A DNA stretch of 64,000 nt from Terriglobia bacterium (GTDB taxonomy: Bacteria > Acidobacteriota > Terriglobia > JAIQFV01). Position numbers and translations under genes: made by a program. This document shows, piece by piece, positions 27,590 through 45,743 of this stretch. Position 1 is the stretch's first letter, and each line of letters starts with the position of its first letter. Under the pieces are notes generated by a model. It saw only the letters and a list, made by a program, of their open reading frames with translations, was not told the origin of the DNA and searched no databases. The stretch spans positions 1 through 64,000 of the forward strand of contig JAIQFY010000005.1 in NCBI GenBank assembly GCA_020072965.1, read 5' to 3'.

Positions 27590-30500
27590 ATGAAGAGGCC
27601 CGGGTTCTCAAACTCATTGTCGCGCCCGTCCCGCCCGCTATTGATTTGGGCATTCTTGCACTTAATCGTGATCTCCGCAGGTCTTTGTACTGTGTTGCCG
27701 ACTTCGGTGCTAGCCGTGTCAAATACCATCGTCCTCAACCAGGTTTACGGTGGAGGGGGAAACTCGGGCGCGACCCTGAAGAATGATTTCATTGAGCTTT
27801 TCAATCGCGGCAGCGCCACCGTTGATGTGACCGGTTGGTCCATTCAATACACCTCCGCCGCGGGGACCACATGGCAGAAGACCGATCTGTCCGGCACCAT
27901 TGCTCCAGGCCAGTATTACCTGGTGCAGGAAGCGCAGGGCTCGGGAGGAACTGCCACCCTGCCCACTCCGGATGTCATAGGAACGCTTGCTTTGAGCGCC
28001 ACGGCAGGCAAAATTGCACTCATCAACAACAACGGCCTGATTGCGAGTGGAACAGCCTGTCCCTCGGGCCCCAACGTGGTTGACTTCGTTGGCTTCGGAT
28101 CAAACGCAAACTGCTTTGAAGGAACCGGACCAAGTCCGGCTCCAAGCAGCACTCATGCGATCTTGAGGTTGAAGGACGGCTGTACAGACACCGATAACAA
28201 CTCAATGGACTTTAATGCGGGGACGCCAAATCCTCGCAATTCTGCCTCTCCGAAGAATTCCTGCGGCACGACAACAAATCCCAGCGGGGTGGGTGGCGCC
28301 AATCCAGGAACCGTCATGGCAGGCGGCTCAACCCTGCTGACCGTCGCGGTCACGCCGGGCTCAAATCCCATCAGCACCGGGATTACTGTCCGTGGAGATT
28401 TGACCCCGATCGGAGGCTCAGCCACTCAGCAGTTCTACGATGACGGAACGCATGGGGATGTGACTGCCGGCGACAATGCCTTCTCTTTTCAAGCCACCGT
28501 GGGGGCGGGCACCTCCAATGGCGCGAAGAGCCTGCGGGTAACCATCTCGGACGCTGAATTACGGACAGCGTCCGTTAGCATTGACCTCACCGCTCAGTCA
28601 TCTTCTCTTATTGCTATCCACGACATCCAGGGAAGCGGCGCCTTCTCGCCCCACCAGGGAGAGTTGGTGACGACCGCCGGCATTGTCACTGCGGTCAAAA
28701 GCAATGCCTTCTTCCTTCAGACTCGGGACTCAGAAATCGATGGCGACCCGAACACCTCCGAGGGAATCGTTGTCTTTACATCGAGTGTGCCGCCCCCGGC
28801 CGCGGCCGTGGGCAACGAGGTTACAGTTACAGGGACGGTCCTGGAATATGTGCCGGCCTCCGACCCCAGCAGTCCATCCCTCACTCAGCTCAGCGAACCT
28901 GTGGCCGTGACACTTGTTTCCACGGGGAATCCATTGCCCGTCCCGGTTACACTGACTGCCGCAGACCTTAGCCCTTCCGGTCCGATCCAACATCTCGGGA
29001 AGTTTGAGGGAATGCGTGTCCATGCGGATTCACTGACGGTTGTTGCTCCCACCCAGGGGTATCTTGATGAGACAAACGCCACCTCCACGTCAAACGGTGT
29101 CTTCTATGCCGTGCTGACAGGGACTCCCCGGCCTTTCCGTGAACCGGGGATTGAGCTGCCTGATCCACTCCCTCCGGGTTCACCCTGCTGCATCCCGCGC
29201 TTCGACGCCAATCCTGAACGCCTGCGTGTCGACAGTGTTGGACTGGTAGGCGGCGCTCCCTTGGAGGTCACCGTAGGAGCGGTCGTGACCAATATCACGG
29301 GGCCGTTGGACTATGCCTTCCGGACTTATACGATTTTGCCTGATCCGGCGACGCCTCCGGGCATTTCGGGGAACATCAGCGCGATCCCTGTTCCCACGCC
29401 AAAGATCGATGAGCTCACCGTCGGCACCTTGAACCTGGAGCGGTTTTATGATTCCATGGACGATCCTTCGACAACTGAGCCTGTCCTGACGACAACGGCG
29501 TTCAACCACCGGCTTAACAAGGCCTCCTTGGCCATCCGGAATGTGATGCGCATGCCTGACATCATTGGCGTCGAAGAAGTGGAGAACCTTGTGACTCTGC
29601 AGTCGCTGGCAGAAAAAATCAATAATGATGCTGCTGCAACGGGAGAGCTCAATCCGAAGTACCAGGCCTACCTTGTCGAAGGCAACGATCCGTCTGGCAT
29701 CGATGTGGGCTTCCTTGCAAATGGTTCTCGCGTGAACGTCATCGAGGTGGTCCAGGTCGGGAAGACGGATACGTATCGGGATCCTGCCACGGGCCAGCAG
29801 GTTCTTCTTAATGATCGGCCCCCCCTGGTCATGCGCGCGACCATCTTGAAAACGGATCCCTCCGTCCCTCCGGTGACGGTCATTGTCAGTCACCTGCGTT
29901 CATTGTCCGGCATCAACGACACGGCGGAGGGTGCCCGTGTTCGTGCGAAGCGCGCCGCACAGGCCGAGTATCTCGCCAACCTGCTTCAATCGCGACAGTC
30001 GGCTGATCCGAGGGAGGCAATCATCTCCATTGGAGATTACAATGCCTTCCAGTTCAACGACGGTTACGTGGATGTGATGGGGACGGTTCTGGGGACGCCG
30101 GCACCGTCTGACCAGGTCATTCTGCCGAGCAGCGACCTCGTTAATCCGGAGTTGTTAAACCTGACCGATCGCGCTCCAGTGGAGCAAAGGTACTCGTTCA
30201 GCCTGGATGGAAACGCGCAGGCGCTCGATCACATTGTGATTTCGGCGAATCTGCTGCCACGATTCACCGGAATCCACATGGCGCGCTGCAATGCAGATTT
30301 TCCCGAATCCTTTCGCAACGATGCGAATCGGCCCGAGCGAATGTCCGATCATGACATGCCGGTCGCTTATTTTAGTTTTCCTTCGGGGGGAGCAGATCTG
30401 TCCGTCGTCAAAAATTATTCATCAGACCCGGTGCAGCCCGGGATTCTATTTGGATACCTCCTTGCAGTGATGAACAACGGCCCTGAGAAGGCCACATTAG

Positions 30501-32542
30501 TGGTGATGAATGATACACTGGCAACCAACACCACCTTCCAGTCCATTACCCCGCCCGCGGGTTGGACTTGTGCTGTCCCCCCGGTGGGAAGCAATGGGAT
30601 CTTGATCTGTACCGATAAGTCGCTGGAGGTCTCGATCCTTGAGACCTTCCTGGTGACAGTGAAAATCAATTGTTCGATCGAGACGGGAACCACCCTAGCC
30701 AGCACGGCAACGATTCAATCTTCCGAAGCTGACTCGAACCTGGGGAATAATTCAACTACTTCAACGGTCACGGTAGTAGATCCCACCACGATCTCTCCTC
30801 CCAGCCAGATGTTCGGAGCGAGCGGCGGGTCGGGAACAGTGAGGGTCAGCATTCCGGGCGACTGTCGATGGACCGCAGTGAGCAATGATCGATGGATCAC
30901 GATTACCTCCTCCGACAGCGGGGCCGGCAGCGCGACTCTCAGTTACCGGGTTGCGCCGAATAATGGCACGAGTTCCCGTGGGGGATCGATGACGGTCGCC
31001 GGACGAACCTTTTCGGTGTCTCAGATGGGCAGTGGCGGCGGAAACACACAGCTCAGTCTCGTCATCCCGGCAGGTGGCGTCAGCTCGGCGGCAACACAGG
31101 TCGAGGGAGGAAACGTTCGTGCAGGGTACGCGACGGTCACCGCCGATCCCTCCAAGAGAGGGGACGGGCGCGGAAACCTTTTTTCCGAGAGCGGTCCTGA
31201 AGGGACGGCGGTTCTCAGCTTGATCCAAAATGGTGTTGTGGTCAGCGAAGTGGGAGTGCCTGCCTCACCGCCCACAACCTCCGCTCTACTCTTCATTGAT
31301 TATCGTTCAACCCTCAAAGTCAAATGGGGTCGGGAGATTGCGCAGTCTTCCCAGGTCAACACCGGACTTGCCGTCGTTAATCAGGAAACTGTCGCCGCCA
31401 ACATTGCCTATCGACTTCGGGGTTCCACGGGGGAGGTTCTAGCGACCGGGCATGGCACTCTGGCGCAAGGCGCTCATCGGGCGTTGTTCATCCATGAATT
31501 GAACCAGATCGCCCCGGATTTCATCTTGCCTCCGGACTTTTCAACGGCTGCGGGGTTTGGGACGGTTGAAATCACGAGCGATCAACCGATATCCATTCTG
31601 GGTTTGCGGCTGACCATGAGCCAGCGTGGAGATACCTTGTTGACGAGTACCCCGATTTCCGATTTGACCCGGCCGGTCAGCGCCGAGGCGCTCTTCTTTC
31701 CTCAGTGGGTGGAGGGGGGCGGGTATACGACGTCAATCATTCTCTTAAACAACTCAGACTCGGTTGAAGCAGGAACGCTGCGGATATTCGACAACCGGGG
31801 CGCAGGCTTGATGGTCCGGCAGTCTGGTAATGATGCCTCTCCGGCTTCAGCATTTAGTTACAGAATCGAGCCACGAGGGTTCTATGTATTTCAGACCGAG
31901 GGATCTCCGTCGACGGTTCTTGCAGGCTGGGCCCAGGTCGAGCCGGACAAAGGCACATCAACGCCGGTCGGCGCCGGAGTATTGAGCTACACCACGGAAG
32001 GCATCCTGCGTTCCGAAACAGGGATTCCATCTGCGATCCCGTCGACTCATGCGCGGATCTATGTCGACCGGTCTGGCGGCCATAATACGGGAATCGCAAT
32101 CGCGGATCCTTCGGGAACAGGCCTTCGCGCCACCCTGAAAGCCTTTCAAGTCGACGGCAACACTGCCACGGGAATCGGGACTTTGGAGCTTGTTGGCCAC
32201 GGGCATGACGCGAAGTTTGCCAATGAGTACATTCCGGCGATTCCGGAGGGGTTCACCGGGGTGTTGGATGTTTCATCGCCTTCACCTTTCGTGGCCCTCA
32301 CCCTGCGTGCCCTTACCAACGCGAAAGGCGATTTTCTAATGACGACATTTCCCATCGTGGACTTGAATCAGACCACTCCCGCTCCGTTAATCTTTCCGCA
32401 GATCGCAGCCGGGGGAGGATATGAGACCCAATGCATCGTGTTCGGGAAAGGGAGTGAAACCCATGCCTTGATCAGCTATTACGGTGATGACGGGGCTCCG
32501 CTGAATGTGGGAAAGACGGCGGATCACAATAAGGAGAGGTAG
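27590..32542 (+). CDS. Giant exported lamin-tail/nuclease/DUF11/BACON protein with shared tail
   Basis: A 1650-residue secreted protein. Signal peptide in residues 1-43 (LIWAFLHLIVISAGLCTVLP, cleavage near VLAVS). Lamin-tail domain about 44-225 (NDFIELFNRGSATVDVTGWS); a beta-domain 226-335; an OB-fold-like nuclease-associated region 336-600; an endonuclease/exonuclease/phosphatase domain about 600-925 with LNLERF, GVEEVEN, VSHLRS, GDYNAF and SDHDMP, giving the metal and catalytic Asp, Asn and His; a DUF11 domain 933-1063; a BACON domain 1064-1147; and a duplicated C-terminal tail 1152-1642 shared with the next two large genes. It is probably an extracellular nuclease displayed at the cell surface. 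ATG 27590 follows GGAG with good spacing. Confidence 0.85.
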   Translation: MKRPGFSNSLSRPSRPLLIWAFLHLIVISAGLCTVLPTSVLAVSNTIVLNQVYGGGGNSGATLKNDFIELFNRGSATVDVTGWSIQYTSAAGTTWQKTDLSGTIAPGQYYLVQEAQGSGGTATLPTPDVIGTLALSATAGKIALINNNGLIASGTACPSGPNVVDFVGFGSNANCFEGTGPSPAPSSTHAILRLKDGCTDTDNNSMDFNAGTPNPRNSASPKNSCGTTTNPSGVGGANPGTVMAGGSTLLTVAVTPGSNPISTGITVRGDLTPIGGSATQQFYDDGTHGDVTAGDNAFSFQATVGAGTSNGAKSLRVTISDAELRTASVSIDLTAQSSSLIAIHDIQGSGAFSPHQGELVTTAGIVTAVKSNAFFLQTRDSEIDGDPNTSEGIVVFTSSVPPPAAAVGNEVTVTGTVLEYVPASDPSSPSLTQLSEPVAVTLVSTGNPLPVPVTLTAADLSPSGPIQHLGKFEGMRVHADSLTVVAPTQGYLDETNATSTSNGVFYAVLTGTPRPFREPGIELPDPLPPGSPCCIPRFDANPERLRVDSVGLVGGAPLEVTVGAVVTNITGPLDYAFRTYTILPDPATPPGISGNISAIPVPTPKIDELTVGTLNLERFYDSMDDPSTTEPVLTTTAFNHRLNKASLAIRNVMRMPDIIGVEEVENLVTLQSLAEKINNDAAATGELNPKYQAYLVEGNDPSGIDVGFLANGSRVNVIEVVQVGKTDTYRDPATGQQVLLNDRPPLVMRATILKTDPSVPPVTVIVSHLRSLSGINDTAEGARVRAKRAAQAEYLANLLQSRQSADPREAIISIGDYNAFQFNDGYVDVMGTVLGTPAPSDQVILPSSDLVNPELLNLTDRAPVEQRYSFSLDGNAQALDHIVISANLLPRFTGIHMARCNADFPESFRNDANRPERMSDHDMPVAYFSFPSGGADLSVVKNYSSDPVQPGILFGYLLAVMNNGPEKATLVVMNDTLATNTTFQSITPPAGWTCAVPPVGSNGILICTDKSLEVSILETFLVTVKINCSIETGTTLASTATIQSSEADSNLGNNSTTSTVTVVDPTTISPPSQMFGASGGSGTVRVSIPGDCRWTAVSNDRWITITSSDSGAGSATLSYRVAPNNGTSSRGGSMTVAGRTFSVSQMGSGGGNTQLSLVIPAGGVSSAATQVEGGNVRAGYATVTADPSKRGDGRGNLFSESGPEGTAVLSLIQNGVVVSEVGVPASPPTTSALLFIDYRSTLKVKWGREIAQSSQVNTGLAVVNQETVAANIAYRLRGSTGEVLATGHGTLAQGAHRALFIHELNQIAPDFILPPDFSTAAGFGTVEITSDQPISILGLRLTMSQRGDTLLTSTPISDLTRPVSAEALFFPQWVEGGGYTTSIILLNNSDSVEAGTLRIFDNRGAGLMVRQSGNDASPASAFSYRIEPRGFYVFQTEGSPSTVLAGWAQVEPDKGTSTPVGAGVLSYTTEGILRSETGIPSAIPSTHARIYVDRSGGHNTGIAIADPSGTGLRATLKAFQVDGNTATGIGTLELVGHGHDAKFANEYIPAIPEGFTGVLDVSSPSPFVALTLRALTNAKGDFLMTTFPIVDLNQTTPAPLIFPQIAAGGGYETQCIVFGKGSETHALISYYGDDGAPLNVGKTADHNKER

Positions 32543-32925
32543 CCGAGGGAAGTAACACCCATTGAACGAGAGTTTTTGGGAAATGTATAGACGAGGGAGG
32601 ATTGAGGGCATCCCAAACATTGGGAGCGCCCTCGACCCTCGTCATACCGCCTACATATTAAAGGTAATAGTTTGCGACGAATTGCGCATGATATGGAAGA
32701 TTCAAGATACAATGACGGCTGAACGAGATTTTCCAGAGGACCGATCGTAGGGATTAGACAGGCCCGTGCAGGGCAGAAATGTTGAAGGGCAATTGGCGTG
32801 AGTGATCCGGCCCGGCCGGGTAGCCCAAGGCCGATGGCGTTATTGGCAATTAGGGGTGTTGAGATCTCCTGCGTCACATGGGACCGGCATTGTATCTGAT
32901 TTCTTACCACTGATCATTGCACACC
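32543..32925. other. Intergenic region without a gene
   Basis: 383 bp between the first giant surface-protein gene and the ion-transporter gene. Open frames are short and lack motifs. No terminator hairpin with a T-run was found. Confidence 0.45.
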
Positions 32926-34134
32926 ATGCTCCCTGCGCTTTTGGTTTTCCTGGGCACCTATCTTGTACTCGCCGTCGGGCGTCTCCCCGGATTTCGCGTC
33001 GATCGCACCGGCGCGGCGATCATCGGCGCCAGCCTGATGATTGCGTTTCGAGTCCTCTCTCTTGATGAAGCCTTCCGGGCGATTAACTATGAAACCATCA
33101 TCCTGCTGTTCGGGATGATGATCGTGGTGGCCAATCTCCGGCTCTCCGGATTTTTCGCGGTGATCAGCGCCTGGGTGGTGGAGCACGCCCATCATCCCCT
33201 GGCGCTGTTGAGTGGAATTGTCCTCGTCTCCGGCGTTTTTTCCGCCTTCTTCGTGAACGATACGATGTGCCTGGTGCTCACTCCGCTGGTGCTCGAAATC
33301 GTCACTCAATTGGACCGCCGGCCGATCCCTTACTTGCTTGCGGTGGCGATGGCGTCGAACATTGGAAGTGTGGCGACCATCACCGGGAATCCGCAAAACA
33401 TGATGATCGGGACTTTTTCTCATATCCCTTATCGCGTATTCGCGGCCACGCTTGCCCCGGTCGCCGGAATCGGGCTGGTCTTGACGGTGTTGTTGATTGC
33501 TCTCGTTTATCGAAGGGAATTCACCCGTGCCCACCCCGTCGACATTCCGAAACCCCGCGTCCGGGTCAACCGAGTTCTTCTGTGGAAATCCGTGATTGCC
33601 GCAGGGGTCATGATCGTCTTGTTCTTTGCAGGATGGCCGGTCGCCAAGGTGGCGGTCGTGACGGGAGCGGCTCTGTTGATCACTCGCCGGGTGAAACCCG
33701 AGAAAGTTTACCGGGAGATCGATTGGCAGCTGTTGGTTTTATTCGGAGGGTTGTTCGTGGTCATTGCCGGCGTGGAGAAGACGTTGCTGAGCCACGACCT
33801 CGCCGGGATCGCGTCAAACTTCAGGCTTGACCGCGTCGGGGTGTTGAGTATCCTCAGTGCGCTGCTCTCCAACGTGGTGAGTAACGTGCCGGCTGTGCTG
33901 GTCTTCAAGCCTTTCATCGCTCGACTGGCGAATGCTCGGCAGGCGTGGATGACGCTGGCCATGTCCTCCACCCTGGCGGGCAACCTCACATTGCTGGGCT
34001 CTATTGCGAATCTCATTGTCGTTGAGCGCGCCCGTCGCGACGTCAGGATTTCATTCCTCGAATACCTCAAGGTGGGTGTGCCACTGACGATTCTGACTGT
34101 GGGGGTCGGCGTCGTTATGATGTCCAGGGTCTGA
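32926..34134 (+). CDS. ArsB/NhaD/SLC13-type ion transporter
   Basis: A 402-residue inner-membrane protein of the ion transporter superfamily (SLC13, ArsB, NhaD related), with about eleven hydrophobic segments. Visible features include INYETIILLFGMMIVVANLRL, the discontinuous-helix signature FFVNDTMCLVLTPLV, SNIGSVATITGNPQNMMIG and its inverted-repeat partner SNVVSNVPAVLVF followed by GNLTLLGSIANLIVVE. Substrate could be arsenite, Na+/H+, or a dicarboxylate; the SxxTxTGNPQN pattern favours the ArsB/anion side. ATG 32926 is chosen over a TTG three codons earlier. It lies between two giant surface-protein genes on the same strand. Confidence 0.82.
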   Translation: MLPALLVFLGTYLVLAVGRLPGFRVDRTGAAIIGASLMIAFRVLSLDEAFRAINYETIILLFGMMIVVANLRLSGFFAVISAWVVEHAHHPLALLSGIVLVSGVFSAFFVNDTMCLVLTPLVLEIVTQLDRRPIPYLLAVAMASNIGSVATITGNPQNMMIGTFSHIPYRVFAATLAPVAGIGLVLTVLLIALVYRREFTRAHPVDIPKPRVRVNRVLLWKSVIAAGVMIVLFFAGWPVAKVAVVTGAALLITRRVKPEKVYREIDWQLLVLFGGLFVVIAGVEKTLLSHDLAGIASNFRLDRVGVLSILSALLSNVVSNVPAVLVFKPFIARLANARQAWMTLAMSSTLAGNLTLLGSIANLIVVERARRDVRISFLEYLKVGVPLTILTVGVGVVMMSRV

Positions 34135-34407
34135 CCAGGGAACCCAATCCTCATCCAATTCTTCGAAGGGCCCCCCTCAATTTCTGCTTGAATCCGAAGA
34201 ACCACAGTCGTAAGATGAGCGAGTTCAATCCCCTATGGTTAAGTCTTCAAGCGTGATACCTGGCTGACGGTCAGGGGAAAATAGTTTTAATCACCCCCTA
34301 TCATTAGATCCACCTCCCAGCAGTGTCTACGTGAGGCACTGCAGTGATTGGCAGTGGGCCCTCGAGACGTTCACCCTGAGGTCTATTTATCGGTGCGGAG
34401 ATTCAAT

Positions 34408-37400
34408 ATGAGCAGATATGGGAGTCATGGCTCTCTTCAACGAGCGATTGTTCCGATCGTCGGGTTCGTGTTCTTGTGTCTGGCTCATCCCATCCACCTC
34501 GTGGGCGGAACTGCCCCGACGGTTGTAACATTAGGCGCCTCCAATATCTCATCTAATTCTGCCTCGCTGGCGAGCACGATCAATCCCAATGGGCTTTATA
34601 CGTTTTACTATTTCGAGTGGGGAACCACGGCCTCCTATGGGCGCTCGACCGAGCCCATTGGCATTGGTTTGGATCAAAGCATGCTTGGGGAGGGCTCTAA
34701 TCTCGACGGGCCGCTTGCGGCCAGCACCACGTATCACTTTCGTGTCGCCGCAACGAATAGCGCAGGAACATCATTTGGTAACGATGCGGTGTTTACGACC
34801 CTCCCCTTACCTTCTCCGGCGCCGACAGTGATCACGCAGGCCGCCAGCAATATCACCTCCAATTCGGCCACATTGAACGGAGTGGTGAATCCCAATGGGC
34901 TGGCCACGAGCTTCTGGTATTCCTATCAAGCCGAGAACGATCCTGGGGTATCATTGTTCCCTATCCCCCTTGGCAGTGGGACCAGTGATATCAGCCTGTC
35001 TTTCAACATCACTGGGCTTCTGCCTTATACGAATTATCATTTTTATTACGTGGCGAGTGGCGGCGGGGTTGTCATTTACGGCGGCGACTTGATATTCACA
35101 ACGCTCCCCGGTTTTTCGCCCCCACTGGCCCAAACGGGTTTTCCAACCAGCGTCACCTCCAATTCAGCCACCGTGACAGGAGCAGTTCATCCCACGGGCT
35201 TAAACACCACGGTTCACTTTAGTTGGGGGACGACGCCCGCATACGGGAATGTGACCGCCACACAATCCATTGGCAGCGGAACCAGTTATGTCCAGGTGAT
35301 GGCAGACCTCCCGGGCCTGCTACCGAATACAACGTACTACTATCAGGTGGTCGCCACAAACAGCCTGGGCACAACCTTTGCGGATGGAAGGCTTTTCAAT
35401 ACCCCGCCACTACTTCTTTCTCCAACAGCCATCACACAACCCGCGGCCTCCATCACATCTTCCTCCGCTGATCTCAATGCCACGGTCAATCCCAACGGAC
35501 TCGATCCCAGTATCATTTTTCAATGGGGGACCAGCCCGGCCTATGGGAACCAGACGCCTGCGATTCCCGTTCCGCCGGTTTTCTCAGACTGGCATGTGGA
35601 TTTTAATGTGACCGGGCTTGTCCCGAACACCCTCTACCATTATCGAGTCGTGATTACAACCAGTGGCGGCACAACGATGGGGAGCGATGCGACGTTTATG
35701 ACGCTAAGCGGGGCGGCTCCCACCGCAATCAACCTTGACCCGTCAAACGTCACATCGAATTCCGCCGTGCTCTTTGGGGCGGTCAATCCCAACGGACTTG
35801 CCGCAACCGCTTATTTCCTCTGGGGGACCAGCGCCGCCTATGGCAACACCACGGCGCCACAGCCCCTGGGCGACGGGACGAATGTCTTGAACGTAACATT
35901 CTTACTTACCGGACTTCTTCCGAATACCACGTACCACTACCAGATCGTGGCAAGCAATAGCTTGGGGACAGTGAATGCCAATAGTGACAGTACATTTACC
36001 ACCTTCGCGCCGGGAAACGCCCCGCCGATCGTGACCACAGGTTTGCCGACTGACATCACAGCGCATTCGGCGAGGTTCACTGCCACCGTTAATCCTAACG
36101 GGTCGGCAACCACGGTGTTTTTCGTTTGGGGAACTGCTTCAATGGAATTCCAAACCTTCCTCCAGCCTGTGGGAAACGGCCTGCGAAATGTCTCTGTTCC
36201 ATTTCTGATGCTGGGGATCGAGCCCAATACCGGCTACCACTATCGAGTCGTGGCGACCAACAGTCTGGGAACGGTGTCCGGGGCCGATGTCTCTTTTGAA
36301 ACGCCATCCTATTTTGCAGCCCCAACAATCTCTAATGTTTATTTGCCAAGCAACATTACGCCCAATTCCGCGACGGTCATTGATTTTATCAATCCCAATT
36401 CATTGCAGACCAGCATCTACTTTCGCTGGGGAACCAGCACCGCTTATGGAAATACCACGACTCCGCAACCGATGGGTAGCGGACAAGTTTTTGTTGAAGT
36501 GACACAAGACCTGACCGGGCTCTTGCCGGATACGACCTATCACTATCAGTTGGTTGCGACGAATAGCATGGGTTCGGTATCGGGAAGAGATATCGTGTTT
36601 ACTACGCCCTCGGTCGACTGTCCGGAAAAGTTCCTCGACCTTGGGAACCTTTCGAATGGAACGTTGAGCTCCAGTTCCTGCCGCTCTGTCGTGAAGGGAG
36701 CCCTGTGGTATGCGGATCGATATTTCTTCACGGTTTTTGCTGGCCAGCCGGTCTCCATTTCAGTGAGCTCTACCGAGATCGACACTTATGTTTCTTTGTT
36801 GAAAGGCGGACTCGTGATTGCATCCAATGACAATGGGGGTGGAGGCACTGATTCACGCATCCCTCCGACCACCGGCCTTCTCACTCTTTCGGAGGCAGGA
36901 ACCTACACGATTGAGGTGACCTCGGCAGCGTCAGGCACGAGCGGCAATTATTCAATCCACCTGGGCCTTCCTACCGGACCTCTCTTCAGCACGGATGTTT
37001 CTCTTCTGGGAGGGGGGGCGGGGAGCGCTGGAACCACCGGCGCGGGAAAGTTGGTGAGAGCCGGCTTTGCCACCGGCACCAGCAGGTCCAACAAAGGTTC
37101 CGGCCTCGAGTCTTCGAGCTCCCCGTATGGGACCGCGATATTCAGTGTGACTCAAAATGGCGTGGTCGTGAGTGAAGCCGGGGTTCCAGCCTCAACGCCC
37201 ACCACCCGGGCGCGCATTTTCGTCGATTTTCAGCCCAATGTTCCTGGTAAAACGGATCAGCGGAATGCGGGGGAGATCAGCATCAACACTGGCTTTGCTA
37301 TTGTCAACCAGGGGAATGGAACGGCGAATATCAAATTCGAATTACGGGATTCCGGAGTCATCGTGGCACAGGGCAACGGCACCCTGCCCCAGAATCAACA

Positions 37401-38433
37401 TCGCGCCCTCTTTCTTAACGAACTCATCGAGATGGCTTTCGATTTCAGATTGCCTGCAACCTTCAACGGGTTTGGCACCTTGGATATCCTCAGCGACCAG
37501 CCTCTTGCAGTATTGGGACTGCGCTTGACCACAAACCAGCGTGGCGAAACGCTAATCACCACGACTCCGATTGCCGATCTTAACCAGCCTCCGGCGCAAT
37601 CGCCCCTGTATTTCCCTCACTTCGCCGATGGGAATGGATACAGGACCATGATCCTGCTCATGAATACCTCGGACGTGGTGGAGAGGGGGCAGCTGCGGAT
37701 AAGAGACAATCAGGGGCAACCCCTGCCTGTGCATGCCGCGGGAAGTAATCTTTCGGAAATTCCTTACTCAATTCAGCCCGGGAGCTCTTACATGTATCTA
37801 ACAGATGGGGCCCCCGGCACGATCGATACGGGTTCCGTCCAGGTTGTCCCCGATCCGGGCACCTCCGCGCCGGTGGGCGCAGCCGTGCTGAGTTACTCCG
37901 TTGCAGGTACCCTGATCACTGAAACCGGCATCCCTTCAGCCACACTCACGAATCATGCGCGCATCTATGTGGACCGTTCCGGGGGGCACAACACCGGATT
38001 GGCCATCGCGGCTCCTGACACCTCACCGATCCGTGTGACGCTGGCCGCGTACCAGGAGAATGGGGTGACGACGATGGGCAGCGGGGAATGCGATCTCGTG
38101 GGCAACGGGCACGATGCAAGATTTGCCAATGAATTCATCCCGGGTCTCCCCGATGGTTTCACCGGGGTCCTTGATATTTCTTCCCCCTCACCCTTTGCGG
38201 CTCTGACCTTGCGCTCACTGACCAACAGTCGAAATGATTTTCTACTGACAACATTCCCGATTGCCGACGCCAACCAACCCGCTCCGAATCCGCTCATCTT
38301 TCCGCAGATCGCAGATGGCGGGGGCTACCAGACTCAGTTCATTTTGCTAAGTACTGGAAGCGGATCGAATGCGACGCTGAACTTTTTTGCTGACGACGGC
38401 ACACCTCTTGCCATTGGGAAGCGCGCGCATTAG
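34408..38433 (+). CDS. Giant exported Fn3-like repeat protein with PPC-type domain and shared tail
   Basis: A 1341-residue secreted protein. Signal peptide in residues 1-34 (RAIVPIVGFVFLCLAHPIHL). Seven Fn3-like repeats of about 95-105 residues fill residues 34-734; each begins PTxxT...NITSNSATL, continues NPNGL...FxWGTS and ends with TTYHYxxVATNSxGT. A pre-peptidase C-terminal-type beta-sandwich covers about 737-853 (DRYFFTVFAGQPVSISVSS). The ~490-residue duplicated tail (858-1336) is shared with the neighbours at 27590 and 38797. No catalytic residues are seen, so an adhesion or scaffold role is likely. ATG 34408 has GGAG seven bases upstream. Confidence 0.83.
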   Translation: MSRYGSHGSLQRAIVPIVGFVFLCLAHPIHLVGGTAPTVVTLGASNISSNSASLASTINPNGLYTFYYFEWGTTASYGRSTEPIGIGLDQSMLGEGSNLDGPLAASTTYHFRVAATNSAGTSFGNDAVFTTLPLPSPAPTVITQAASNITSNSATLNGVVNPNGLATSFWYSYQAENDPGVSLFPIPLGSGTSDISLSFNITGLLPYTNYHFYYVASGGGVVIYGGDLIFTTLPGFSPPLAQTGFPTSVTSNSATVTGAVHPTGLNTTVHFSWGTTPAYGNVTATQSIGSGTSYVQVMADLPGLLPNTTYYYQVVATNSLGTTFADGRLFNTPPLLLSPTAITQPAASITSSSADLNATVNPNGLDPSIIFQWGTSPAYGNQTPAIPVPPVFSDWHVDFNVTGLVPNTLYHYRVVITTSGGTTMGSDATFMTLSGAAPTAINLDPSNVTSNSAVLFGAVNPNGLAATAYFLWGTSAAYGNTTAPQPLGDGTNVLNVTFLLTGLLPNTTYHYQIVASNSLGTVNANSDSTFTTFAPGNAPPIVTTGLPTDITAHSARFTATVNPNGSATTVFFVWGTASMEFQTFLQPVGNGLRNVSVPFLMLGIEPNTGYHYRVVATNSLGTVSGADVSFETPSYFAAPTISNVYLPSNITPNSATVIDFINPNSLQTSIYFRWGTSTAYGNTTTPQPMGSGQVFVEVTQDLTGLLPDTTYHYQLVATNSMGSVSGRDIVFTTPSVDCPEKFLDLGNLSNGTLSSSSCRSVVKGALWYADRYFFTVFAGQPVSISVSSTEIDTYVSLLKGGLVIASNDNGGGGTDSRIPPTTGLLTLSEAGTYTIEVTSAASGTSGNYSIHLGLPTGPLFSTDVSLLGGGAGSAGTTGAGKLVRAGFATGTSRSNKGSGLESSSSPYGTAIFSVTQNGVVVSEAGVPASTPTTRARIFVDFQPNVPGKTDQRNAGEISINTGFAIVNQGNGTANIKFELRDSGVIVAQGNGTLPQNQHRALFLNELIEMAFDFRLPATFNGFGTLDILSDQPLAVLGLRLTTNQRGETLITTTPIADLNQPPAQSPLYFPHFADGNGYRTMILLMNTSDVVERGQLRIRDNQGQPLPVHAAGSNLSEIPYSIQPGSSYMYLTDGAPGTIDTGSVQVVPDPGTSAPVGAAVLSYSVAGTLITETGIPSATLTNHARIYVDRSGGHNTGLAIAAPDTSPIRVTLAAYQENGVTTMGSGECDLVGNGHDARFANEFIPGLPDGFTGVLDISSPSPFAALTLRSLTNSRNDFLLTTFPIADANQPAPNPLIFPQIADGGGYQTQFILLSTGSGSNATLNFFADDGTPLAIGKRAH

Positions 38434-38796
38434 AAGCCCGGCATCCTCGCGCCGGGCTGGGCGTCGGTTCCGGGGCCAACTATGAGGTGGCTTATGCTGT
38501 GCCGCCGATAGCCGCCGGCTTCCCCGTGGGTGTTCTGTGGCTGATACAAGTCTAGTCGCCCTGGTTCGTGCCTATGCATGTTCCCCTGTCTTTCCCGGTG
38601 AATTGAGTACTCTCGCAAGACCGATCAAAGATTATTCGTGACGCGGCCCCTTCCTTGAATGGAAGTGAAGTTAGGTGTAAAATAGTTTTAGGTCGATCAC
38701 CCATAATCGACCTTCGGCATCCATAGCCAGTCCGGAAGGCTGGACAGGCTTTATTCCCTCACCCTAAGAATCAAATTCGAAGACGAGAGAGAAGCT
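38434..38796. other. Intergenic region with two hairpins before the third giant gene
   Basis: AGCCCGGC (38435-38442) pairs with GCCGGGCT (38451-38458) right after the stop, but no T-run follows. At 38691-38712 GGTCGAT and ATCGACC flank CACCCATA, a second 7-bp hairpin, directly after AAAATAGTTTTA (38679-38690). The latter motif recurs at 34278-34289 before the second giant gene. No coding region. Confidence 0.5.
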
Positions 38797-41700
38797 ATGA
38801 AACTATTCATTGCGAGGAGACTTGGTCTTAACAACTTGCTCCGCGGGATGGGAGCCGCAATACTGTTCGCCGCCACCCTTCCGATCCAGATTAATACCCT
38901 GATTGCGGGCAATGTATGCAATTCGGGCCGGGTTGGGGTTGCTCCCACTTATTACACCGGCGCGAGTCCCCGATCCGTGGCAATGGGGGATTTCAGTGGA
39001 GACGGGATGCTCGACCTGGCGGTCGCCAACTATGATGATTCTCACACCTCTCCTGGGAATGTGTCGATCCTGACTGGAATTGGGGATGGACGCTTTGAGT
39101 ACCGACTATATTACATCAATGGTAAACAACCGATCGCCGTCGTCGCCGGGGATTTTAATCGCGACGGAAAATTGGATTTAGCGGTTGCGAACCAATTGTC
39201 GAACGACATCACCATCTTTCTGGGAAATGGAAACGGAACCCTTCAGCAGCCCTTGAGCTATACCGTTGGAACGGGCCCTTCCTCACTGGCCATCGGAGAT
39301 TTTCAAGGGGATGGAAAGATCGATCTGGTGGTAGCCAGCAACGACTCGAGCACTCTGTCGGTCCTTTTGGGGAATGGAAATGGAACTTTCCAGCCGGCAC
39401 TCATTTATTCTATCGGCCCCGGTCCCCGTTTTGTTGCGGTGGGAGACTTCAATGGAGATGGGAAGCCTGATCTGGCTGTAGCCCATTCCATTGAGGGCTA
39501 TTTTGGTTTCCACGAGGTTTCAATATTTTTGGGCAAGGGGGACGGCAGCTTTGGCAGCGCAGTAACATACAGTGCCGCTGAGAATCCGATGTCGATTGCC
39601 ATGGGTGATTTCAACGGAGACGGCAGGGTGGATCTTGCCGTGGGGAGCCAGTCTACCAACGAGATTTCTATTCTGATAGGGAACGGTGACGGCAGCTTCA
39701 AAGCGCCGAGGAACTATGCAGCCGGTGGTTCGCCAGCCTCCATTGCCATCGCAGACTTCAACGCGGACGGGAAGCTGGATATGGCCGTTGCCAATTCCAC
39801 GTATACTACCTTTGGTACACACAATGTCTCGGTGTTATTGGGAAACGGGGATGGATCCTTTCAGTCGGCCACAAATTATGAAGCGGGTGAAAACCCTGCG
39901 GCCGTTGCAGCGGGAGATGTGAATGGGGACGGAAGAGTCGACCTCGTGGTGTCGAATTACAGCGGAGCCAGTGTTTCCGTCCTGATGGGCAACAATGATG
40001 GAACATTTCAAGCCTCGCTGAACTATGCGGCGGGTCCGACTCCCTATTGGATTGCCGCCGGCGATTTCAATGGAGATGGGAGGCCGGATCTTGCGGTCAC
40101 CAACTACACCTCTGACACAGCATCCATCCTATTGGCTGCAGGACACGGCGGATTCAAGCCCCCGACCAGTTACAAAGTCGGATCGTATCCACAGGCGGTC
40201 GTAGCCGCTGATTTCAATAGTGATGGGAAACTGGATTTGGCCGTAGCCAATAGGAGTTCAAACACCTTTTCCATTTTGTCAGGCAATGGCGATGGTACCT
40301 TTCAGCCGGCGGTTAATTATGATACCGGACCGGGGTCCTCTCCACAATTCATTGCGATTGGAGATTTTAACCATGACGGAAAGCCCGATTTGGCGGTGGC
40401 AAGCGCCGTTGGGGGGGAGGTGCTCATTCTCTTTGGAAAGGGTGATGGAAGTTTTCGTTCGCCCGTCCATGTCAGCCTCACCATTCCTGCTGAAGGGGTC
40501 AGCGTAGCTGACTTCAACCGGGACGGCGTTGAGGATTTGGTGACACTCAATGAAAACTCTCACAGTGTGTCGATCCTCCTGGGGAGGGGCGACGGCACGT
40601 TCCAGCCGGGGCGGGCCTTCGGAGTTGGACGCTACCCCAAAGCGGTCACCGTTGGGGATTTCAACGGTGATGGATATCCGGATCTAGCCGTTACAAGCCC
40701 CAATGTCAAGGGGACTGAGTCGATTTTGCTGGGGAAAGGGGATGGGACATTTCAGTCGCCCGTAGATTATGAGGTTGTGGCTTATCCGCAATTCTCAGTC
40801 GTTGGCGATTTGAACGGTGATGGGAAATCGGACATTTTTGTTGTGAGCCTTCTCGGAAGAGAGTCGGTGATGTTTGGTAACGGCGACGGGACGTTTAAGC
40901 CCGCTATCCCATATTTGATTGGATCATCTCCGCAATCGGCGGTCATTGCTGATTTTAACGGAGATGGAATGATGGACGTTGCATTAGCAAACGCGTTCAG
41001 CGCGGATGTCTCGGTCGTAATGAATGGTACATCCCTGACACTGGTCCCGGCGAGTCTCCCGGATGGCGTGTTTGGACAGGCATACAACCAAAGCCTGATG
41101 GGGACCGGCGGCGTACCGCCTTACCACTTCGAGATCTCGGGAGGCGCCTTGCCGATGGGCCTTTCTCTGTCGACCTTCGGCCAGATCTCGGGAACGCCTC
41201 TCGCTTTGGGGCCTTTCTCTCTATCAGTGACGGTGACGGATGCTCTAGGTTGCACACAACGTCAAGGTGTGATCATGAGGACTGTCGCTGCCAATCATAT
41301 TTCCCCACAACGTCAAGGTGTGATCATGAGGACTGTCGCTGCCAATCATATTTCCCTGGCCATCCCCGCCGGCGGCGCTTTCAGCGCCTCGACGGTGGGT
41401 AGTGTCGGCATAGTCCAAACTGGATTCGCTGTTTTGGAACAAACATCTTCACTTGGGTTAGTCTTCGGTACTGCCGTTGTCAGCGTTGTCCAAAACGGAG
41501 TGGTCATCAGTGAGGTGGGAGTCCCCTCAGTTTCTGAAACGCGATCGGCCCGAACCCTTATCGAATACCGTCAGGATGTCTCAGTAAGCGATGGTCATCC
41601 AGAGGCAGGTCCCATCGCCGTAAACACTGGTTTGGCGATTGCGAATCGCGGATATTTTACCGCGACCGTGACATATCAGCTGCGAGACTCAAAGGGAAAT

Positions 41701-42828
41701 ACGATCGCGATCGGACACGGCTCAATCCTTCCCTTGTTGCACCGGGCCTTTTTTATCGATCAACTCGAAGGGTTTGCGTCGGACTTTGTCCTGCCCCCAG
41801 ACTTTTCAACCCAGACGGGATTTGCCAGCCTGGAGATTTCAAGTGATCAGCCACTTGCTCTCTTAACATTAAGGGCAACTACCAATCAACGGGGTGAGAC
41901 CCTGTTGACGACGATGCCCACCGCTGATTTGACCCAATCCCTGCCTCCGAGACCCCTGGTTTTCCCCCACTTCGTCGATGGCGGCGGCTACACGACTTCC
42001 TTGTTTATGCTCAATACATCAGACTCGCCAGAGACCGGGAAATTATTCATTTACGATGAAACGGGAGCACCATTGACGGTACATCGAATGGGGGATCCGG
42101 CCGGCGCTTCGTCGAGCTATAACTACGAAATTCCACCTGGGGGCTTCTACATTTTGAAGACGGATGGCTCACCCGGTTCAGTCCGGGCTGGAGCAGTCCA
42201 TGTGATGCACGATCCTACAGGTGCCTTACCGGCATGTGCTGGCCTCTTCAGCTATTCGTCGGGAGCGGTGCTGGTTACGGAATCCGGAATTCCCTCGACC
42301 ACCATTTATACTTCGGGCCCCACCAGCAACGCACGCATCTATGTCGATCAATCGAATGGCCATAAGACGGGACTCGCCCTCGCAAATTACTTTAGCCAGC
42401 CAGTGCATGTAACGCTCAACGCGTTTCAAAGCGATGGTGTGACCCCGGTGGGAACGGCATCCCTGGATCTCGGCCGGAACTCCCATGCCGCAAAATTCGT
42501 GGACGAACTGATTCCATCGCTTCCGGATGGCTTTACTGGAGTGCTGAACATTTCCGCATCGCCCCCCGTTGCCGCCCTCACTCTGCGCTCGTTCACTAAC
42601 TCCCGGGGGGATACCTTGTTAACGACTTTTCCGGTGGGAGACGATGACGACTTGACCTTGTCTTACCCTCTTATCTTTCCCCAGATCGCGGATGGAGGGG
42701 GATACCGGACCCAGATAATTTTGCTAGCCCGGGGAGGGGGCTTCACCGCAACCCTGAAATTTTATGATGACAATGGCTTGCCGTTGGGTGTAGGAAAAAA
42801 TGGGCGCGACCGAAATGGCGCATTCTAG
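38797..42828 (+). CDS. Giant exported FG-GAP/VCBS beta-propeller protein with shared tail
   Basis: A 1343-residue secreted protein. Signal peptide in residues 1-38 (GAAILFAATLPIQINTLIAG). About fourteen FG-GAP/VCBS repeats span residues 45-745, each carrying a calcium-binding loop of the type GDFNGDGKPDLAVA; together they should form two seven-bladed propellers. A putative Ig domain follows (SLPDGVFGQAYNQSL, residues 748-818). A 17-residue segment is tandemly duplicated near residue 820-853, and then comes the ~490-residue duplicated tail (853-1335) shared with the genes at 27590 and 34408. Function is probably surface adhesion. An AGAGAGAAG sequence precedes the ATG. Confidence 0.85.
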   Translation: MKLFIARRLGLNNLLRGMGAAILFAATLPIQINTLIAGNVCNSGRVGVAPTYYTGASPRSVAMGDFSGDGMLDLAVANYDDSHTSPGNVSILTGIGDGRFEYRLYYINGKQPIAVVAGDFNRDGKLDLAVANQLSNDITIFLGNGNGTLQQPLSYTVGTGPSSLAIGDFQGDGKIDLVVASNDSSTLSVLLGNGNGTFQPALIYSIGPGPRFVAVGDFNGDGKPDLAVAHSIEGYFGFHEVSIFLGKGDGSFGSAVTYSAAENPMSIAMGDFNGDGRVDLAVGSQSTNEISILIGNGDGSFKAPRNYAAGGSPASIAIADFNADGKLDMAVANSTYTTFGTHNVSVLLGNGDGSFQSATNYEAGENPAAVAAGDVNGDGRVDLVVSNYSGASVSVLMGNNDGTFQASLNYAAGPTPYWIAAGDFNGDGRPDLAVTNYTSDTASILLAAGHGGFKPPTSYKVGSYPQAVVAADFNSDGKLDLAVANRSSNTFSILSGNGDGTFQPAVNYDTGPGSSPQFIAIGDFNHDGKPDLAVASAVGGEVLILFGKGDGSFRSPVHVSLTIPAEGVSVADFNRDGVEDLVTLNENSHSVSILLGRGDGTFQPGRAFGVGRYPKAVTVGDFNGDGYPDLAVTSPNVKGTESILLGKGDGTFQSPVDYEVVAYPQFSVVGDLNGDGKSDIFVVSLLGRESVMFGNGDGTFKPAIPYLIGSSPQSAVIADFNGDGMMDVALANAFSADVSVVMNGTSLTLVPASLPDGVFGQAYNQSLMGTGGVPPYHFEISGGALPMGLSLSTFGQISGTPLALGPFSLSVTVTDALGCTQRQGVIMRTVAANHISPQRQGVIMRTVAANHISLAIPAGGAFSASTVGSVGIVQTGFAVLEQTSSLGLVFGTAVVSVVQNGVVISEVGVPSVSETRSARTLIEYRQDVSVSDGHPEAGPIAVNTGLAIANRGYFTATVTYQLRDSKGNTIAIGHGSILPLLHRAFFIDQLEGFASDFVLPPDFSTQTGFASLEISSDQPLALLTLRATTNQRGETLLTTMPTADLTQSLPPRPLVFPHFVDGGGYTTSLFMLNTSDSPETGKLFIYDETGAPLTVHRMGDPAGASSSYNYEIPPGGFYILKTDGSPGSVRAGAVHVMHDPTGALPACAGLFSYSSGAVLVTESGIPSTTIYTSGPTSNARIYVDQSNGHKTGLALANYFSQPVHVTLNAFQSDGVTPVGTASLDLGRNSHAAKFVDELIPSLPDGFTGVLNISASPPVAALTLRSFTNSRGDTLLTTFPVGDDDDLTLSYPLIFPQIADGGGYRTQIILLARGGGFTATLKFYDDNGLPLGVGKNGRDRNGAF
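41255..41356 (+). repeat. 51-bp in-frame tandem duplication
   Basis: Two adjacent 51-bp copies (41255-41305 and 41306-41356) give a repeated 17-residue segment (QRQGVIMRTVAANHIS in both) at the boundary between the Ig-like domain and the tail of the FG-GAP protein. The copies are essentially identical, which points to a very recent slippage or unequal-crossover event. Confidence 0.9.
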
Positions 42829-43058: not shown

Positions 43059-45743
43059 ATGCCGATCCGGATCGATCCCGAGAAGAAGAGCATCTCGCTC
43101 AGTGTGAAGGATGTTGCAGCGCTGGTCGCCGGCCCCGGGGCGGTGGATGAAGTGGCCTATGGCGTCGCACGGATGACGCTGGGACGGCTGGCGCATGAGT
43201 CCTACCAGGCCAGCCGGGCGCAGGAAGAAGAATCGTTCCAGAAAGAATTCGCCGTCAGCCACTCCTTCCAGGTCGATGAATTCGAGGTGTCCATCGGGGG
43301 GCGCATCGACGGAGTCTCCCGGCGCGGAGACGTCACCGTCGTGGAAGAAGTAAAGTCGACGTTGCGGACCCGACAGGAACTGCTCCGCTACGATGCCGCC
43401 AGTTTTGAGCGGTATAAACTTCAACTCCAACTCTACCTCTATTTCCTATGGATTGGCGGACTTCGCAGCCTCGAGGGGGTCCTGATCTTTATCAGCCTCG
43501 TGGACGAGGGCCGCTATTCCTTTCAAATCGACTTCGATCCGGAAACCGTTGAGGCCCTCTTACAAGACGCCCTCCAGCGGGTCATCGAGGAGTGGCGCGC
43601 CGGGCAGCGCCGTGCGGCCCTGAAGCGGCAACTGGCCGGGAAGATACAGTTCCCTTTTTCCGAAATGAGGCCCTATCAATCCCGGATGATGGAACACATC
43701 GAAGAAGCCCTGCTGGCGCGCCAGGATTCCATGGTGTGCGCCCCCACCGGGGTAGGGAAGACCGTGGCGGCCTTGATGCCGGTCCTTCGATTTGCTTTAC
43801 TGGAAAATAAGAAGATTTTTTTCGTCACCTCCAAAACGACCCAGCAACAACTGGTCGTGGAAACGGTGCGGCAAATCCTTCAAACGGCAGATGCTTCGCA
43901 GACGGCATCCGGCTTCAATGTCCTTGTTTTGCGCGCCAAAGAAAAGATGTGCGCTAATGACGTCTGCTTTTGCCATCCGGACTTCTGCAATTTTGCCAAG
44001 AACTATTTCACCAACCTCGCCGACTCGAAGCTGGTGGATTACTTTTCCAGCCAGGCCCTGATGCTCCCCGATGAGATCTATGCGAAAGGGAGTCCAGCGG
44101 GTGTCTGCCCCTTCGAGCTTTCGCTGGAGCTGGTCAACCGCGCCGACCTGGTCATCTGCGATTACAACTATGTGTTCGATCCCTGGATTTCATTGCGGCT
44201 GTTTGCGGCGGGCGAGCCCTTCGATCACTGTCTCCTGATCATCGATGAAGCGCACAATCTCTATTCCCGCGGCCGCGAATATTACTCTCCTGAACTGGAA
44301 CGAAACACGGTTCGCGAGTTGATGACCTGGGCGGAGTCCCGATGCAGGCAATTATCCAGTGACGCACAGGGGTCTGTAGGGACGCACAGTCGTGCGCCCA
44401 AGAAGGTTAATCAACAATCTTCTCTCAACTTCTCTGGTCCTGACGAGGCCGATGACCGCGCCCTCTTCGACCGGCTGGCCACCTTTTTCACTTTTTTTGA
44501 AAACTACTTTGAACGGGTGGCGTTTTCGGCCCTCGAGCCGTTTGAAGGCAATCCGCCTGCTGAGCCAAAGTACTTCGCCTCGCTGGATTTGAATTTTCTG
44601 ACGAAACGGTGGTTTGAGCTGGAATCGATGATGCTTGATTACTTCATCTATCGAAAGCGCCGCCACGAGGTCCGACCCGACGACCCCTTCATCGATTTCT
44701 ATTTTCAATTCTCTCGTTTCTTGAGCGTCGCCTCGATTGGCGGCAAGCAGTTCTCAACGATCTATGATGCGACCGAAAACAACGAGCGGTTGAAGATTGT
44801 CTGTAAGGACCCCTCGCGGCAGCTCTCCGAGCGCGCGCGGGGTTTTTACAATGCCACGGCGATGTCGGCGACGCTCGAGCCCATGGAATTCTTCCGCGAC
44901 GTGCTGGGTTTCGAGAAGTCCCGGACCCTCTCCATCAGCCTGCCGTCGCCTTTTCCGCCCGAAAACCGTCTCATCGCCATCGTCCCCGATGTCCTGACCA
45001 CCTACAACCAGCGGTCCCGTTTCTACGAAAAGATTGCTCGCGTTGTCGAGTCAACCGTGCGGGTGCGGCCGGGAAACTATTTTGCCTTCTTTCCGTCGTT
45101 CGAGTTCCTGGTCTCCGTGCAGAGATTTTTGGACCTCCCGGAATTTCGTGTGGTGACGCAACAGCGGGTGATGGACGAAGACGCGAGGGCGGCGGTACTG
45201 AAGGGACTGAGGATAGCGACTACCCCTTTGGTCGGAGATGTTCCTGTGGCTCAGAATGGAAGTCCTGGGGAGGGTGGGACCAACGCCAGGACCCGACCGC
45301 ATCCAGGCCTTAAGGCTTCCCTCCAGCAAGCTCGAGCGACGCTGGTCCTTGCTGTCCAAGGCGGAATTTTCGCGGAAGGGGTGGACTATCCCGGAGAGTC
45401 GTTGATCGGGGCCATCATCGTTGGCCCGGGGCTGCCCCGGGTCTCCTTTGAACAGGAACTCATGCGCCAGTATTACGACGAGGAATTCGCCGACGTTGAG
45501 GGCGGCGAGCGCTCGCGGGGATTCGCCTATGCGTATCTTTATCCCGGGATGAACCGTGTCATTCAGTCGGCCGGCCGTGTGATCCGCAGCGACACCGACC
45601 GCGGGGTCATCGTCCTGCTGGACCGCCGCTTTGCCCAGCATCCGTATATTGATTTGTTGCCGGACCATTGGTACCGCTATTCGCCGGAGGAGTTGATGGT
45701 GACGGACCTCGAGTCCGCCCTGAAGAAGTTTTGGGGAGGATGA
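43059..45743 (+). CDS. XPD/DinG-like Fe-S DNA helicase with PD-(D/E)XK-like N-terminus
   Basis: An 894-residue superfamily 2 helicase. The N-terminal ~190 residues resemble a Cas4/PD-(D/E)XK nuclease (GGRIDGVSRRG, then VVEEVKST and YKLQLQLYLYF). Walker A is VCAPTGVGKTVAAL, the DEAH box LLIIDEAHNLYSRGREYY, and four Cys for a 4Fe-4S cluster lie in CANDVCFCHPDFC and GVCPFEL. C-terminal helicase motifs include NATAMSATLEPMEFF, AVQGGIFAEGVDYPGE and QSAGRVIRSDTDRGVIVLLDRRF. It is likely a repair helicase moving 5' to 3' on single strands. Two low-complexity inserts (about residues 427-457 and 724-760) look like intergenic palindromes that entered the frame. Confidence 0.85.
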   Translation: MPIRIDPEKKSISLSVKDVAALVAGPGAVDEVAYGVARMTLGRLAHESYQASRAQEEESFQKEFAVSHSFQVDEFEVSIGGRIDGVSRRGDVTVVEEVKSTLRTRQELLRYDAASFERYKLQLQLYLYFLWIGGLRSLEGVLIFISLVDEGRYSFQIDFDPETVEALLQDALQRVIEEWRAGQRRAALKRQLAGKIQFPFSEMRPYQSRMMEHIEEALLARQDSMVCAPTGVGKTVAALMPVLRFALLENKKIFFVTSKTTQQQLVVETVRQILQTADASQTASGFNVLVLRAKEKMCANDVCFCHPDFCNFAKNYFTNLADSKLVDYFSSQALMLPDEIYAKGSPAGVCPFELSLELVNRADLVICDYNYVFDPWISLRLFAAGEPFDHCLLIIDEAHNLYSRGREYYSPELERNTVRELMTWAESRCRQLSSDAQGSVGTHSRAPKKVNQQSSLNFSGPDEADDRALFDRLATFFTFFENYFERVAFSALEPFEGNPPAEPKYFASLDLNFLTKRWFELESMMLDYFIYRKRRHEVRPDDPFIDFYFQFSRFLSVASIGGKQFSTIYDATENNERLKIVCKDPSRQLSERARGFYNATAMSATLEPMEFFRDVLGFEKSRTLSISLPSPFPPENRLIAIVPDVLTTYNQRSRFYEKIARVVESTVRVRPGNYFAFFPSFEFLVSVQRFLDLPEFRVVTQQRVMDEDARAAVLKGLRIATTPLVGDVPVAQNGSPGEGGTNARTRPHPGLKASLQQARATLVLAVQGGIFAEGVDYPGESLIGAIIVGPGLPRVSFEQELMRQYYDEEFADVEGGERSRGFAYAYLYPGMNRVIQSAGRVIRSDTDRGVIVLLDRRFAQHPYIDLLPDHWYRYSPEELMVTDLESALKKFWGG

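Follow-up and report, generated by a model that had tools for sequence, protein, structure and literature searches.

A circularly permuted tail on exported proteins of Acidobacteriota, with a possible role as a glycan anchor

Described relatives of the tail

The described proteins that most resemble the tail analysed here belong to the ASRAH superfamily, which De Souza, Iyer and Aravind defined from the Anabaena sensory rhodopsin transducer (ASRT; PMC2739507). This 2009 paper was the only relevant one that we found on ASRAH. The fold is an eight-stranded sandwich; the solo form is a tetramer, and the secreted families have dyads or tetrads (PMC2739507). The domains have a nearly invariant asparagine at the end of strand 2 and a well-conserved tryptophan at the start of strand 1. 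Outside of the ASRT-like family, they are secreted and are predicted, by computational analysis, to bind sugars or peptidoglycan (PMC2739507). There is also work on ASRT as a DNA-binding protein (PMC8660804).

Like the tail, the ASRT family (PF07100; structures 2II7 and, for Thermotoga TM1070, 1NC7) has an eight-stranded beta-sandwich and a four-fold assembly, with a conserved asparagine after strand 2 and an arginine in a late strand. In contrast, ASRT is one intracellular domain that assembles as a tetramer of four chains, whereas the tail has four permuted domains on one secreted chain. The secreted ASRAH tetrads of Chloroflexi amidases and the dyad lipoproteins of actinobacteria (PMC2739507) are closer to the tail in that several ASRAH domains lie on one chain and are joined to other domains. 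Going by their descriptions only, each of these families has one type of head and no reported permutation, whereas the tail has many types of heads and alternating A and B domains that are split at the ends. Finally, the C-terminal domain of type IX secretion (type IX CTD; TIGR04183) is also a common tail on unrelated exported heads, but it has no sequence match to the tails in the window (the whole 64,000-nucleotide stretch of Terriglobia DNA that we analysed). The type IX CTD is about 80 residues long and is specific to Bacteroidota relatives.

One permuted tail on unrelated heads

The window contains three forward-strand genes that were described from the outset as having unrelated heads and a common tail of about 490 residues, and our comparisons bear this out. 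The tails are 55, 47, and 50% identical in pairwise alignments over 469–494 residues (E = 1e-143 to 1e-176), while the heads have no significant similarity to each other. Gene 1 (27590..32542) encodes a signal peptide, a lamin-tail domain, an ExeM/NucH-like nuclease, DUF11, BACON, and the tail (31046..32542, with variable last few codons). Gene 2 (34408..38433) encodes a signal peptide, Fn3-like repeats, a PPC domain, and the tail. Gene 3 (38797..42828) encodes a signal peptide, 14 FG-GAP stretches, a He_PIG Ig-like domain, and the tail (41350..42828). Pfam and NCBIfam scans of the window proteins gave the heads the same names as the preliminary description had, and left the tails without any model. 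A plausible signal peptide follows each of the starts at 27590, 34408, and 38797; two of the longer open reading frames begin upstream of these starts. In the translations of the open reading frames, the tails span residues 1229–1726 (P0001), 880–1361 (P0002), and 852–1343 (P0003). Adjoining the tail genes, at 43059–45743, is a helicase-like open reading frame with a PD-(D/E)XK-like start, which looks ordinary by eye.

The tail had been read as two copies of a unit of about 200 residues. The internal duplication is real (copy 1 against copy 2 gives an hhalign probability of 100%, E = 9e-46), but the unit is an A domain plus a B domain, or about 230 residues, and the copies are permuted rather than laid end to end. 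The order is half-A, B, A, B, half-A. The sub-profiles of B1 and B2 match each other (99.9%, hhalign). By the same method, the first ~87 residues of the tail match only positions 45–111 of the complete A domain (99.0% probability), and the last 45 residues match only positions 1–44 (99.3% probability). As the two ends together supply a whole A domain, the tail consists of two A-B units that are circularly permuted inside A. In gene 2, the N-terminal piece (36979..37200) corresponds to the rear of domain A (positions 45–111 of the model); it is followed by B1 (37201..37608), the complete domain A2 (37609..37944), B2 (37945..38295), and a C-terminal piece (38296..38430) that corresponds to its front (positions 1–44 of the model). 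Genes 1 and 3 have the same order.

The permutation point is much the same in other proteins. Of 94 proteins with domains that end in B-A-B-A, 89 have a last A fragment that breaks off at position 38–48. The tail is nearly always C-terminal: no more than 6 residues follow the last A fragment in 85 of the 94 proteins. Behind the tail, 3 of the proteins have long extra regions (of 355, 737, and 860 residues), which means that its place at the end is not a strict rule. Relatives L105, L107, L108, L110, and L116 have non-permuted A-B or A-B-A-B forms, often near the N-terminus. In one protein (L056:5296–7965, reverse strand), the order of head and tail is reversed, with the tail module right behind the signal peptide and an RCC1 propeller after it.

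An AlphaFold2 model of the whole tail, built from an alignment of 36 tails, has a pLDDT of 92.7 and a pTM of 0.89, with high confidence in both end pieces. In VIA-align, the B domains match TM1070 (1nc7; Z = 14.0, rmsd 2.5 Å, 108 residues) and ASRT (2ii7–9; Z = 10.0–10.5), and the next rows are at 7.6 or below; we did not count the absence of other folds from this list as evidence. When domain A2 is modelled alone (pLDDT 93.1), TM1070 (1nc7) is the top match both in Foldseek (E = 2.9e-4, TM 0.67–0.70) and in VIA-align (Z = 11.3 over 103 residues). Profile-profile comparisons with eleven ASRT-family sequences (TM1070 included) gave E = 9e-5 for B, against 0.067 for the best of 60 column shuffles, and E = 0.0025 for A, against 0.11 for the best shuffle; Fn3 and He_PIG controls scored 0.036 or worse. 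Searching the A and B sequence profiles against PDB chains returned nothing useful. We are confident that the A and B domains have the ASRT/TM1070 (ASRAH) fold. The preliminary description had found no named family for the tail, and this holds for the window tails at the level of sequence, but the fold itself already has a name. Two other candidates were dropped. Birnavirus VP2, which tops the Foldseek list for the whole tail, has a TM of about 0.1 and is a chance beta-sandwich match, and the matches to fuculose-aldolase are weak and far under the cut-off.

More than 20 VIA-align matches to the whole-tail model, many of them among the lower rows, reach from residue ~14 to residue ~486 and align only some 78–102 residues, which fits both ends of the tail packing as one domain. 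It is quite probable that the fourth domain is completed in this way. The tail would then form an independent module of four beta-sandwich domains with eight strands each: a single A domain would supply its back part to the start of the chain and its front part to the end, and the meeting of the two ends would make this fourth domain whole and shut the module, much as the last blade closes a beta-propeller. Most likely, then, the tail is a single-chain pseudo-tetramer that is closed by its own ends, and it would be the one-chain counterpart of the tetramer that is formed by stand-alone ASRT/TM1070 proteins. We infer the ring geometry from the sequence halves, the confidence of the model, and the alignment ranges.

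The residues that are conserved across 36 aligned tails mark them as a related, outlying family and not as plain members of the superfamily. The fold's conserved asparagine at the end of strand 2 is present in 36/36 tails in A2 and in 34/36 in B1, and it is relaxed in B2 (23/36) and in the last A fragment (12/36). The arginine that aligns with ASRT's arginine is present in all 36 tails in both B1 and B2. As in the ASRAH superfamily, the B and A2 models are eight-stranded beta-sandwiches, and the four domains per tail, as counted from the sequence, correspond to the dyads, tetrads, and tetramers of that superfamily. However, the ASRAH tryptophan of strand 1 is replaced by Phe or Tyr (judged by position in the strand), and the pocket residues of ASRT are not kept (H25 is replaced by N, D, T, and others, and C29 by A, I, or V). 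The SHEshChhN signature of PF07100 is absent from the tails, and PF07100 had no match in the Pfam scan of the window or in this genome. Because the strand-1 tryptophan and the ASRT pocket signature are absent, we view the tail as an outlying, permuted relative of ASRAH and not as a member of the ASRT family. DUF5719 (PF18986) does not match the window proteins, but it matches 4 of the 36 tails (best E = 2.7e-7), which are divergent relatives. Several of the non-permuted A-B relatives match as well, in most cases over a portion of the model, and we found no literature on it.

Spread of the tail and its possible role

The tail is re-used throughout this genome (5.9 Mb, 108 contigs), which has 48 tail matches. 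Full-length tails number 24 and lie on 17 contigs; roughly a dozen further copies are partial or divergent. All 24 full-length tails are C-terminal, with 0–21 residues beyond them, and 30 of 33 open reading frames with tails have a hydrophobic N-terminal segment. The heads include propellers (FG-GAP, NHL, and BNR/sortilin), enzymes (S8 subtilase, pro-kumamolisin, reprolysin-like M12 protease, glucose/sorbosone dehydrogenase, and nuclease), and other domains (He_PIG, Fn3, TIG, and InlB-type), and these are extracellular kinds. The earlier suggestion of one module on many interchangeable exported heads is supported.

Related genomes also have tail matches (36 in a sister species, 32 in a sister genus, and 12–33 in members of one other family of the class). 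In an even sample of Acidobacteriota, 33 of 297 genomes have the tail. Across 84,980 species genomes, the only relatives that our scan detected were in Acidobacteriota and on one contig that is binned as Bacteroidetes; our search of plasmids and viral contigs found none. The exceptional contig (L068) is 5.7 kb long, carries a near-full tail, and is possibly a binning error.

We propose that the C-terminal tail grips a glycan and in this way keeps many exported enzymes and propeller proteins on the cell surface or within the extracellular matrix, so that the heads would perform chemistry while the tail anchors them. We give about even odds to the tail being a glycan anchor at the surface or in the matrix, given the fold and the kinds of heads. 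Against this reading stand the replacement of the ASRT pocket residues and of the strand-1 tryptophan, the regions that follow the tail in 3 of the 94 proteins, and the work on ASRT as a DNA-binding protein. As a whole, a self-closing, four-domain tail of the ASRAH fold that grips glycan as a surface or matrix anchor is the best explanation that we have, and we lean slightly towards it. It would provide a fold and a likely job for a very common, unnamed secretome tail of abundant and hard-to-culture soil bacteria, and it would turn the question of what holds exported enzymes of Acidobacteriota into a direct binding experiment. It would also add a natural example of how a homotetramer can become one permuted chain that its own ends close. 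More tentatively, and we would sooner doubt this than assert it, a tetrameric sugar sensor that has become a circularly permuted single chain closing on itself might underlie a principle of surface labelling in Acidobacteriota and might spread between genes as a whole cassette; if so, it would serve dozens of secreted enzymes in each genome as their universal glycan anchor.

Another possibility is that the tail has no specific ligand and acts as a passive spacer or a cap for stability, like other Ig-like repeats of giant bacterial surface proteins. The loss of the ASRT pocket residues would fit such a role, and the heads already contain many Ig-like spacers. However, the tail has a fixed number of units, with two B domains and never a longer array (none of the tails compared by domain order has more than two), and its permutation point is near-constant. 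Also, Gly, Asn, and Arg positions are invariant in tails that are only 31–55% identical, unlike in variable spacer arrays. A passive role seems unlikely.

Alternatively, the tail could be a C-terminal sorting signal for a dedicated secretion or attachment machine, similar to the type IX CTD or to a sortase or exosortase tail. This would account for the near-strict C-terminal place on many unrelated exported heads, and the genome does encode two sortases (G000 C71:43866 and C82:29570). But no substrate motif for these sortases is visible in the tails, whose ends are short, polar, and variable, without LPXTG plus a transmembrane end. The genome has no match to exosortase or to SprA (SprA had no match in control genomes, either), and TIGR04183 matches just 1 of 36 tails (E = 0.007) and no window protein. 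Moreover, 490 structured residues is far above the size of known signals, and the module is also found before other domains (in L056 with RCC1, L057, and L087). A dedicated sorting signal is therefore less likely than a glycan anchor, and we consider it quite unlikely.

Finally, ASRT-fold proteins oligomerise (PMC2739507) and there are 24 full-length tails in one genome, so the tails of different proteins might bind each other to build a shared surface complex, but this is very improbable given that the four domains could already satisfy a tetramer within one chain.

Pairing of heads and tails

Tails do move between heads, though not often. In a comparison with the sister species, 14 of the 24 tail proteins pair with one and the same protein whether heads or tails are compared; most of the others had no ortholog among the loci that we fetched. 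Within the sister species, the heads of two proteins (L138 and L140) are unrelated, but their tails are 92% identical in protein and 89% identical in DNA over 1,429 nt, and the shared block runs from the first residue of the tail to the stop codon. Also, FG-GAP heads require 11 changes on a tree of 68 tails. Together, these stable pairs, the shared tail of L138 and L140, and the FG-GAP changes indicate infrequent transfer.

The idea that the locus in the window grows by head swapping is not supported: the copies are spread across 17 contigs, the tail tree does not place the three window tails closest to one another, and 14 of 24 pairs are preserved. Growth of the locus by tandem duplication was dropped on the same tree, in which the window tails are not sisters. 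Among the genes that we checked for repeats at the junction, only gene 3 has one. This is a 51-nt tandem duplication (41250..41351, forward strand, 96% identical) that ends at the junction of head and tail, and it is possibly a trace of how the two were joined.
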